From Promethearchaeia archaeon (lineage in GTDB: Archaea > Asgardarchaeota > Lokiarchaeia > Sigyniarchaeales > SOKP01), in assembly GCA_029856145.1 (NCBI GenBank), contig JAHQWK010000023.1:47999-111998 (forward strand): DNA of 64,000 bases, written 5' to 3'. Shown piece after piece: positions 31,134 to 34,456 of the stretch; within the stretch, counting starts at the first letter, position 1, and every line of letters starts with the position of its first letter. Both the position numbers and the translations under genes were made by a program. The notes below the pieces were generated by a model. It saw only the letters and a list, made by a program, of their open reading frames with translations, had not been told where the DNA came from and searched no databases.

Positions 31134-32123
31134 ATGTTAACTCCAGAACAGATGAAAGAAATTTTAAAAGAAAATGTAATTAATCTTAGGTTTCACGCTC
31201 GTGGTGGACAAGGAGGAGTTACTGCTTCTAACCTATGTGTTGAAGCATTTTATGGTTATGGTGTATGTCAACCCTTATTTGGGGCAGAACGTATGGGATC
31301 TCCTACTGAAAGTTATGTCAGGCTTAGCGGAAATGAAGATTTGGTAAGAACTAATGAGCAAGTTTATGCTCCACACGCAGTTTCTGTATTGGATCCCTCT
31401 CTTTTAGGAGAAGTTGATGTAATAGCGGGGATCGCTCCTGGAGGGTGGCTTATTGTTAATACTACTATGGATCAGGTCTCTATTCAAGAAATTATTGGTC
31501 GAAAAGATATCAATATTGCAACAATAGATGCACTAAACATTGCAATGGAAATTTTTGGTAGAAACATTACAAACACTATCATTTTAGGAGCCTTATTAAG
31601 AGTGGTTCCTATATTTTCCATTGATGCATTAGCAGATGCAATAATGCGTCGATTTAAAGGTGAAATTGCGGGGAAAAATGTTGTTGCTATAAAACAGGCT
31701 TATGAAGAAACTTGTATATATGAAACTCCAGATGCTCCTGCTATTGATTTTACGATTGATACAAAAGTTCCTTGGCAACAAGTATATCCTGGATTGCCTG
31801 GATTTAAAGAACTGGATGATGCGGGAGTATGGTACTGTGATGAAGATGTTATAGAAATTGGGAGTAAGCAAGTAAATACGGGTTCTTGGGGTGAATGGGA
31901 TATGATTTGGGACGAAGAAAAATGTACTGACTGTGCTCAATGCTGGTATATTTGTCCTGATTTCACAATTATTAGAGAAAAAGGAGAAGATGGGCTATGG
32001 CATATGAAGGGTATTGACCAAGCTCATTGTAAATCTTGTCAAAATTGTCTAGAGATCTGTCCTGTTCAAGCTATTACTAAAAAATTAAAACAAGGTCCGG
32101 CTTCATGTGCCGTGCCTGAATGA
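31134..32123 (+). CDS. 2-oxoacid (pyruvate):ferredoxin oxidoreductase, fused gamma-delta subunits
   Basis: Gamma: RFHARGGQGGVTASNLCVEAF...GAERMGSPTESYVR. Delta: CTDCAQCWYICPD and CKSCQNCLEICPVQAI. Confidence 0.94.
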   Translation: MLTPEQMKEILKENVINLRFHARGGQGGVTASNLCVEAFYGYGVCQPLFGAERMGSPTESYVRLSGNEDLVRTNEQVYAPHAVSVLDPSLLGEVDVIAGIAPGGWLIVNTTMDQVSIQEIIGRKDINIATIDALNIAMEIFGRNITNTIILGALLRVVPIFSIDALADAIMRRFKGEIAGKNVVAIKQAYEETCIYETPDAPAIDFTIDTKVPWQQVYPGLPGFKELDDAGVWYCDEDVIEIGSKQVNTGSWGEWDMIWDEEKCTDCAQCWYICPDFTIIREKGEDGLWHMKGIDQAHCKSCQNCLEICPVQAITKKLKQGPASCAVPE

Positions 32124-33367
32124 AGGAGGGAAATATTATGAGTATAGAACCGATGAGAATATTTTTTAAAGAAATTAAAGAACCTATCGAAACAACAATG
32201 ATAGGAAATTATGCTGTCGCGGGTGGAGTGACTCAAACAGATCCTGATGTTATTTGTGCTTTTCCTATTACTCCTCAAACTCAATCTGTTGAAGGTTTAT
32301 CTGATGTTGTTCATCACGGAAGATTAAAAGCAGCTTTTGTAAATGTTGAATCAGAATTAGCTGCGATAAGTTATTCAACTGCTGCTTGTGCAGCAGGAGC
32401 AAGATCTTTTACGGCAACAGCAAGTCAAGGTTATTTACTAATGACTGAAGGACTTCCAATGGCTGTAGGATGGAGACTGCCTTTAACAATGATGATTTCT
32501 GCTAGAGCTTTTAATTCACCTAATTTATCTATTTGGAATTCTTGGGAATATACACAAGTTAATTCTGAACTTGGTTGGAATATAATTGTTTCTGAAAATG
32601 TTCAAGAAACTTATGACGCAGCAATCCTTTCAGTCATGATTTCAGAGGAATCATTATTTCCAACTATATTTGTACATGATGGTTTTATAATATCTCATTC
32701 AGTCCAGAAATTAACATTAATCCCAGATGAAACCGTTACAAGAATGACGCCTAAAAAACCAAGAAATACTATTGATCCATCAAGACCAGGAACCTGGGGA
32801 GGTATTGTTACTCCTTCCTATTTTATGGAAGGACGAGCTAAACTAGAAGAAGCTAAACAACCAGTTTTAAGCCAAATGACTGATGTATTCAAAAAATTCA
32901 AAACAGAAACTGGAAGAGAATATAATCTGATTGAAACTTATAATTTGAATAACTCATCTAAAACTGCTTTTTGTACTATGGGTTCATTAAGTGGGAATAT
33001 TATTAGTTGGTTGACAAAAAACAAGGATATTGGTTTAATTAAAATCAGAGCATATCGACCATTTCCATATAAAGAATTACGTAAAATAGTAGAAGAATAT
33101 AATTTAGAAAAATTAATTCTTTTAGAAAAAAGCGATTCACTAAATGGGATGTTACCACCATTTTCAATGTCAATTGCTTCTGCTCTATATCCATTGGGTA
33201 CACTTTTTAGAAGCTTTATTGTTGGTTTAGGCGGAAGAGATGTTACACGAGATGAGTTTGATATAGCAAAAAAGAAAATGGAATCTGTAACAGATATGAA
33301 GGGACAATTATATCAATATCTAGGAGTCAGAGAAACAAAACAAAAAATTTCAGGGGTGAATCAATAA
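32120..33367 (+). CDS. porA: Pyruvate:ferredoxin oxidoreductase alpha subunit
   Basis: GNYAVAGGVTQTDPDVICAFPITPQTQSVEGLSD, VESELAAISYSTAACAAGARSFTATASQGYLLMTEGLP. Confidence 0.94.
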   Translation: MKEGNIMSIEPMRIFFKEIKEPIETTMIGNYAVAGGVTQTDPDVICAFPITPQTQSVEGLSDVVHHGRLKAAFVNVESELAAISYSTAACAAGARSFTATASQGYLLMTEGLPMAVGWRLPLTMMISARAFNSPNLSIWNSWEYTQVNSELGWNIIVSENVQETYDAAILSVMISEESLFPTIFVHDGFIISHSVQKLTLIPDETVTRMTPKKPRNTIDPSRPGTWGGIVTPSYFMEGRAKLEEAKQPVLSQMTDVFKKFKTETGREYNLIETYNLNNSSKTAFCTMGSLSGNIISWLTKNKDIGLIKIRAYRPFPYKELRKIVEEYNLEKLILLEKSDSLNGMLPPFSMSIASALYPLGTLFRSFIVGLGGRDVTRDEFDIAKKKMESVTDMKGQLYQYLGVRETKQKISGVNQ

Positions 33368-34456
33368 ATGTCAAAACCAGAGAGGAATATTATAAATTTT
33401 GATGATATCTTAGCCAGAAGTGAAAAATCCAATGTTTTATTTTTCAATTATGATAATGAAGCTTTTATGAATACGGGAATCCAAGAAAGTGGAGGAACAC
33501 CACCCTATGCTTCTACAACAACGGGTCCTGCGGGAGAGAAAATTCCAGGGAAAATAGGTGTAAAACAGGATTTAGTGACTCCATTTGCTTTCTACGGAAC
33601 TAAAAAACTCTTCTTAGCCACAGTAAATCCCGCATATCCAAATGACTTTATGGGAAAAGTAGCCGACGCACTTAAATCAAATGGTTCTGCTTTCATCCAA
33701 GCATATTCTGATTGTATGAGAGGATGGAGACATGCTGCTGCTGATGCCTTAAGTATCTCCAAACTAGCAACTGATTGTGGATATTGGCCTCTTTACACAG
33801 TGAGAGTGGAAGATGGTATACCCATTTTTACTTATTATCGTGGATTAGATATTGATAAAGATAAATTTGTAGAATATCTTAAATCAATGGGTAAGTTCAA
33901 GCATTTATTTAAACCTAAATTTATGGAAAAAGAAATTGATGAGATTATCTATTTAACAGAACAACGAAATAATAAATTGAAAGGATTAATCGATCAATTT
34001 GGTGCTGAAAAACCTATAGATGTCTATAGAGTTAATCGAAAGAAACTCCAACCTCAAATCCATTTACAGCCAGGTCATGGTTTATGTCCTGGATGTGGAG
34101 CTGGGATGGTTTTAAATCAAATGGCAACTGCAGCAACCGCTGTTGCTGATACAAACATAATTTATGTTAATAATACAAGTTGTTCAGAAGTTTCAACTTC
34201 AAAAGATAACGTAACTTCCTGGAATGTTCCTTGGGTTCACCATTTATTTGAATCTGGTGCTACTGTTGCTGAAGCTATCTCAACCGCAAAAAAAATTATG
34301 AAAGCTAAAGATCTTTATAGTCAAGAAATTCCTTGGATCATTCACATAGCAGGAGATGGCTCTACGTATGATATTGGTTTTCAATTCCTTAAAGCTGCAC
34401 TTATAAGAACGAGTAGTTTTGTGGAAATGAATGAGTATTTGAAAAATCAAAAATAA
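33368..34456 (+). CDS. porB: Pyruvate:ferredoxin oxidoreductase beta subunit, circularly permuted
   Basis: N-terminal part NVLFFNYDNEAFMNTGIQESGGTPPYASTTTGPAGEKIPGK...YSDCMRGWR...GYWPLY is normally C-terminal. C-terminal part GHGLCPGCGAG...NNTSCSEVSTS...VPWVHHLFE...AGDGSTYDIGFQFLKAALIRT is normally N-terminal. Confidence 0.93.
   Translation: MSKPERNIINFDDILARSEKSNVLFFNYDNEAFMNTGIQESGGTPPYASTTTGPAGEKIPGKIGVKQDLVTPFAFYGTKKLFLATVNPAYPNDFMGKVADALKSNGSAFIQAYSDCMRGWRHAAADALSISKLATDCGYWPLYTVRVEDGIPIFTYYRGLDIDKDKFVEYLKSMGKFKHLFKPKFMEKEIDEIIYLTEQRNNKLKGLIDQFGAEKPIDVYRVNRKKLQPQIHLQPGHGLCPGCGAGMVLNQMATAATAVADTNIIYVNNTSCSEVSTSKDNVTSWNVPWVHHLFESGATVAEAISTAKKIMKAKDLYSQEIPWIIHIAGDGSTYDIGFQFLKAALIRTSSFVEMNEYLKNQK

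Follow-up and report, generated by a model that had tools for sequence, protein, structure and literature searches.

A circularly permuted OFOR β subunit in the porGD-porA-porB operon of Lokiarchaeia

Results

The halves of PorB are in swapped order

The window, as the whole 64,000-nucleotide stretch of Promethearchaeia DNA analyzed here is called, contains a porGD-porA-porB operon in which porB, as judged by homology, is a genuine circularly permuted OFOR β subunit with its two halves swapped. The best overall explanation, to which a probability of about 0.9 is assigned, is that the operon encodes a genuine permuted OFOR β subunit, most likely that of a pyruvate synthase/PFOR. The porB open reading frame occupies positions 33368-34456 of the forward strand, extends from an ATG start to a TAA stop and encodes 362 residues. 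Its first base is the next base after the porA stop codon.

A phmmer search against solved structures aligned residues 3-115 of the β subunit of Methanosarcina acetivorans PFOR (9bt4_C) with PorB residues 226-347 (i-E 6.3e-16), and residues 119-282 of the same chain with PorB residues 23-193 (i-E 8.3e-26). The β subunit of oxalate oxidoreductase (5c4i_C) gave the same swapped pattern. Profile-profile alignment with hhalign, in which 26 canonical PorBs from other Asgard genomes were compared with an alignment of 31 permuted proteins, matched residues 130-321 (of 329) of canonical Asgard PorB to permuted residues 18-209 (E 1.7e-54) and canonical residues 5-138 to permuted residues 218-354 (E 1.1e-36), values that exclude a chance match. 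An earlier, sequence-only reading had proposed that the PorB halves are swapped, and the alignments to 9bt4_C, 5c4i_C and the canonical Asgard profile agree on this: both halves are homologous to PorB and their order is reversed. The PorB motifs quoted in that reading are all present in the ORF.

Pfam recognized a partial TPP_enzyme_C domain alone, residues 18-111 of the protein corresponding to positions 70-150 of the 151-position profile. The NCBIfam pyruvate synthase PorB model (PRK11865) matched two separate stretches and scored 199.7 bits, below its cut-off of 405; two canonical Asgard PorBs fell short of this value as well (352 and 385). The contiguous TPP motif and the canonical order of the halves are absent from the window PorB, and since the order is swapped, the protein is termed a permuted variant rather than an ordinary member of the PorB family.

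Anatomy of the permuted chain

The chain begins with a new N-terminal extension (residues 1-17; 33368..33418, forward strand, as for all segments of the gene), which lies ahead of the first residue matched by hhalign, residue 18, and forms a short strand and a helix (6-15) in the AF2 model. The residues after this extension correspond to the last part of the post-GDG helix of canonical PorB. They open the canonical C-terminal half (residues 18-209; 33419..33994), equivalent to canonical 130-321, which contains the DNE half of the TPP/Mg motif, the SDC cluster cysteine C116 and the native C-terminal tail. The native C-terminal tail runs to residue 209 and the native N-terminal tail starts at residue 218; the junction of the old C- and N-termini is the gap of about 8 residues (210-217; 33995..34018) between the two hhalign matches. 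The canonical N-terminal half follows (residues 218-354; 34019..34429), equivalent to canonical 5-138, with CPGC, SCSEVSTS, PWVHHLFE and, from the TPP/Mg motif, the GDG half together with its following helix. A new C-terminal extension (residues 355-362; 34430..34453) forms the end of the long terminal helix.

The sequence-only reading had given the bounds of the ORF correctly. The linker that it quoted, however, consists mostly of the native tails, and only about 8 residues are new sequence. Its placement of the cut inside the TPP/Mg motif, between the GDG and DNE halves, was upheld by hhalign, according to which the new chain ends lie there. More precisely, the cut is past the helix that follows GDG and ahead of the DNE-carrying strand.

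Active site and predicted fold

The cluster cysteines C116, C240, C243 and C272 are invariant among 31 diverse permuted members and align with the canonical cysteines; all four expected cluster ligands are thus kept, as had been supposed. The TPP/Mg residues G329-D330-G331 and N27-S41, including DN(E)...NTG within N27-G37, are invariant in the same 31 proteins, and so is the NYDNEAFMNTGIQES block.

The AF2 model of PorB (pLDDT 73.9, pTM 0.82) has a strand at residues 23-29, just before DNE and near the N-terminus, and a strand (323-328) and a helix (337-358) that flank GDG at the C-terminus. Its confidence is low around the TPP loop (residues 32-74, pLDDT <50). The best Foldseek matches of the model were PFOR and OOR β chains. 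The sequential alignment covered about half of the chain (TMq 0.39), and sequential Foldseek was rejected as proof of the fold, being unsuitable for a permutation. The chain would be expected to take the normal PorB fold, in which the GDG-bearing C-terminal helix would pack beside the DNE-bearing N-terminal strand, and the Mg-TPP site would be assembled from both ends of the chain and not from a single unbroken motif. From homology, we infer that the two ends meet and in this way rebuild the TPP site.

Operon context

The partner genes have the normal order within the operon, as had been noted and as their Pfam and NCBIfam domain matches confirm. The α subunit gene porA (32120..33367, forward strand) is canonical in order, with the Pfam domains POR_N and PFOR_II, PorA_Arch as its best NCBIfam match and a match to 9bt4_B (E 3.4e-55). 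The fused γ and δ subunits, also in canonical order, are encoded by porGD (31134..32123, forward strand), which has PF01558 plus 4Fe-4S domains. In nearly all loci that reach that far, porGD-porA lies directly upstream of the permuted porB. The exceptions are L082, where porB stands without porA, L062, with about 2.4 kb between porGD and porA, and L094 and L096, where porA was found and a match to porGD was not. Four genomes of the same genus (G004, G005, G006 and G008) and a fifth genome, G030, have neither the permuted porB nor its partner porA, indicating that α and permuted β tend to be retained or lost together.

Distribution and authenticity

A related-locus search in GTDB genomes recovered 62 further loci, mostly 51-94% identical, from genomes nearly all of which are titled Lokiarchaeota, Helarchaeota or Sigynarchaeota, which bears out the Asgard affiliation supposed in the sequence-only reading. 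When related Asgard genomes were checked for the permuted order, it was present in 70 assemblies, as counted from the match table for the 232 phylum genomes that were scanned; all 70 belong to the class Lokiarchaeia (families f1-f5 and f7). No permuted copy was found in the 22 other families scanned (f8-f29), which gave separate canonical-type partial matches only. A non-exhaustive scan of genome contigs beyond the phylum with short query peptides returned Asgard-type loci only.

A chimeric assembly or a mis-joined contig could also place two porB fragments in swapped order. The source genomes are mostly metagenome assemblies, and contigs end inside porB in some of them (G158, G167 and G141). 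However, the same junction recurs in 70 genomes, with homologues down to 51% identity, and four of the assemblies with permuted porB are single contigs (G003, G042, G049 and G052). Furthermore, to judge by contig names such as k127, NODE, CSMAG and Zod, different projects and assemblers produced the named records, and the dN/dS of the permuted porB, about 0.05, argues against a chimera. The independent assemblies with the same order rule this explanation out for practical purposes, and it is given almost no weight. A split gene, or two separate ORFs, was ruled out as well, as the junction is crossed in one open frame in 70/70 permuted genomes.

Two records stood apart by their labels or content. 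L087 is titled Bathyarchaeota, and its PorB, PorA and porGD are of the Lokiarchaeia type, the PorB grouping with Sigynarchaeota; it is probably a mislabelled MAG. Of the class members examined, G047 alone has a pyruvate-type PorB in canonical order (L100) and lacks a permuted copy. Its PorB groups with those of other families and the assembly shows 9% contamination, which suggests possible mis-binning or replacement.

Phylogeny, selection and origin

In the full-length tree, for which the sequences were rotated to canonical order, the permuted proteins fall into a single clade (SH-aLRT 100); the N-half and the C-half tree both recover this clade (SH-aLRT 100 in each). Because one clade is recovered in the full-length and both half-trees, the permutation, on the sequence evidence, arose once, no later than the base of the sampled class. 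The stems are long, at 2.29 changes per column for PorA and 1.5-2.0 for permuted PorB. As the PorA stem is as long as that of PorB, the whole complex has diverged and not the permuted chain alone.

The permuted porB is under strong purifying selection. Compared with the nearest relative in the alignment, the window gene has a dN of 0.029 and a dS of 0.54, which corresponds to a dN/dS of about 0.05, and the junction region (residues 199-225) is also constrained (dN 0.065, dS 0.37). It was considered whether porB is a decaying or non-functional relic, given that the operon is absent from some genomes and that porB is cut after about 12 codons in G026. The strong purifying selection and the invariance of the catalytic residues across the class both argue against a relic, which is very improbable.

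The route to the permuted gene would have started with a tandem duplication of porB. An in-frame fusion of the copies would have come next, with the native tails linked through a short junction, and copy 1 would have lost its first half and copy 2 its second. The alignments with hhalign matched canonical positions 130-138 (about 9 residues), which cover the last part of the post-GDG helix and the beginning of the DNE strand, at both ends of the permuted chain. Two tandem copies, fused and then trimmed from the outside, would leave such a segment at both ends, and the proposed route is based on this. The 9-residue overlap is short, and as a sign of duplication, fusion and trimming it is suggestive.

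Two different β paralogues might instead have been fused, with the C-half of one placed ahead of the N-half of another. The stem of the permuted proteins is placed differently in the C-half and N-half trees, but without support and where long branches meet. Against such a fusion, each half is best matched by the same pyruvate-type PorB profile, PRK11865, and each half forms one clade with full support. Moreover, the boundary sequence that hhalign finds at both ends and the retention of both native tails are as the duplication of one gene predicts. A fusion of different paralogues is therefore disfavoured and rated unlikely. Standalone N-half copies in G158, G001 and G167 were considered as relics of the original duplication and rejected; they look recent or local, not ancestral, and the one in G158 looks like a contig break.

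Interrupted and partial copies of porB

In four genomes, porB is interrupted by hairpin insertions of about 30-31 nt (L094, 5111-5147; L078, 5111-5142; L074, 3030-3060; L081, 5108-5138). They bring in stops or a frame change and lie inside DNEAFMNTG-IQES of the TPP motif. The minimum-energy fold of the L094 insertion combines three paired parts, an outer helix (CACCGGA/UCUGGUG), a 4-bp central helix (UCCA/UGGA) and a 9-bp inner hairpin, with two bulges, one of 3 nt (AGG) and one of 4 nt (AAAA) opposite a single unpaired A. This fold has a z of -3.9, and none of 200 shuffles was equally stable. If each bulge is cut behind its second nucleotide, exactly 31 nt are lost and IQESGG is restored, in line with the cleavage rule for archaeal bulge-helix-bulge motifs. 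The insertions in L074, L078 and L081 have related but relaxed folds (z -0.8 to -1.9) that are unexceptional relative to shuffles, and a scan for the strict canonical motif, allowing no extra unpaired base, missed the insertion candidates. As a lead, the insertions are candidate bulge-helix-bulge introns, possibly pre-mRNA introns of a Lokiarchaeal metabolic gene. Among archaeal protein-coding genes, cbf5 of Crenarchaeota is known to contain introns (PMC2738675).

One MAG, E44_bin85, contains two incomplete loci, L098 (5001-5108) and L082 (5001-6086). The first has porGD-porA and, behind it, no more of PorB than residues 1-36, the break coinciding with the site of the hairpin insertions; the second, on a different contig, has a full porB without porA. 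In G026, unrelated sequence interrupts porB after the initial codons (L136, from 2728) and by eye resembles a small toxin-antitoxin pair of the nucleotidyltransferase type. The 3' part of permuted porB is present a second time, as partial copies, in G001 (L099, 4050-4400), near a small toxin-antitoxin-like pair, and in G167 (L108, 1213-1626), where a small PIN-type gene lies between copies that are near-identical in the stretch compared. It is as if small elements insert at porB, carrying or duplicating its end. In addition, G001 has a PorB of canonical order that carries a fused 2Fe-2S/4Fe-4S module at its N-terminus (L105, 1-4120). This PorB has PorA-like, NuoE-like and NuoF-like genes as neighbours and lies directly upstream of permuted-type porGD-porA. 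This gene set is a probable NAD-linked 2-oxoacid oxidoreductase.

Function and substrate

The permuted PorB would work with the normal PorA and PorGD in CoA-dependent oxidative decarboxylation, electrons passing from TPP through the proximal cluster to ferredoxin. By homology, a pyruvate-type OFOR is the most likely assignment. Pyruvate synthase models are best for both PorA (PorA_Arch, 291.9 bits) and PorB (PRK11865, with the score given above), the closest solved structure for both subunits is Methanosarcina PFOR, and the PorA 'ARA' motif has an aligned Arg, the residue that binds pyruvate in PFOR.

A permuted OFOR acting on 2-oxobutyrate or another small 2-oxoacid in place of pyruvate is the less probable assignment against these matches. 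The long stems of PorA and PorB suggest that substrate specificity may have shifted, and neither subunit reaches its NCBIfam equivalog cut-off. Furthermore, the same genome has two other OFOR sets in canonical order (C7 and C18), one of which could be the pyruvate enzyme; the best model for their β subunits is 3-methyl-2-oxobutanoate dehydrogenase, with pyruvate synthase close behind. The PorB-type β subunit of the sequence-only reading was borne out. Its specification of pyruvate went beyond the evidence, the substrate being deduced for a complex whose stem, that of PorA included, is long. The Asgard isolate MK-D1 is reported to be able to oxidise 2-oxoacids via 2-oxoacid:ferredoxin oxidoreductases (PMC7015854).

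Discussion

Fixed circular permutations are rare in core multi-subunit redox enzymes, and a cut within a cofactor motif offers a natural experiment on how far catalysis and assembly depend on contiguity of the motif. The permutation is a rare, hard-to-reverse change that sets Lokiarchaeia, including the genomes labelled Helarchaeota and Sigynarchaeota, apart from the other Asgard families scanned, so that phylogenies near the root of eukaryotes can use it as a marker. In addition, model-based annotation under-calls this porB, as a partial Pfam domain and two NCBIfam pieces below the cut-off, so that metabolic reconstructions could wrongly score Lokiarchaeia as lacking PorB.

It is conceivable, if rather doubtful, that the cut in the TPP motif is adaptive, that it allows Mg-TPP binding or release, or assembly with PorA, to be controlled differently, and that it came with a change of substrate or regulation. 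Such control could, for example, act through cofactor-coupled folding of the terminal helix onto the N-terminal strand, and the long stems of PorA and PorB alike would be accounted for if the whole complex had changed in substrate or regulation.

A full-text literature search (titles and abstracts; most subscription journals and all preprints lay outside it) returned no description of a permuted PorB or OFOR β subunit. The statement in the sequence-only reading that none had been described agrees with what the searchable literature holds, and as far as that literature could be searched, the permuted OFOR β subunit has not been previously reported.

The canonical M. acetivorans PorB (9bt4_C) and the window PorB have in common the homologous halves, the CxxC, C and C ligands and the GDG and DNE residues, and the partner of the former, 9bt4_B, is of the same PorA type as that of the window. 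They differ in that the window protein has its halves swapped, its termini between GDG and DNE and its native tails joined by about 8 residues. The oxalate oxidoreductase β subunit of Moorella thermoacetica (5c4i/5exd) is the second-best homologue of both halves and has the same overall fold; its order, however, is canonical, and the α partner in the window resembles PFOR far more than OOR. TPP enzymes carry their PP and Pyr domains in varied order or on separate chains, as in one-chain PFOR versus PorABGD. These rearrangements are modular too, but they involve whole domains or chains, whereas the cut in the window PorB is inside the PP domain and within the TPP motif. Natural circular permutation through tandem duplication occurs, for example, in swaposin and in DNA methyltransferases, and the duplication, fusion and trimming by which the window PorB would have arisen is the same route.
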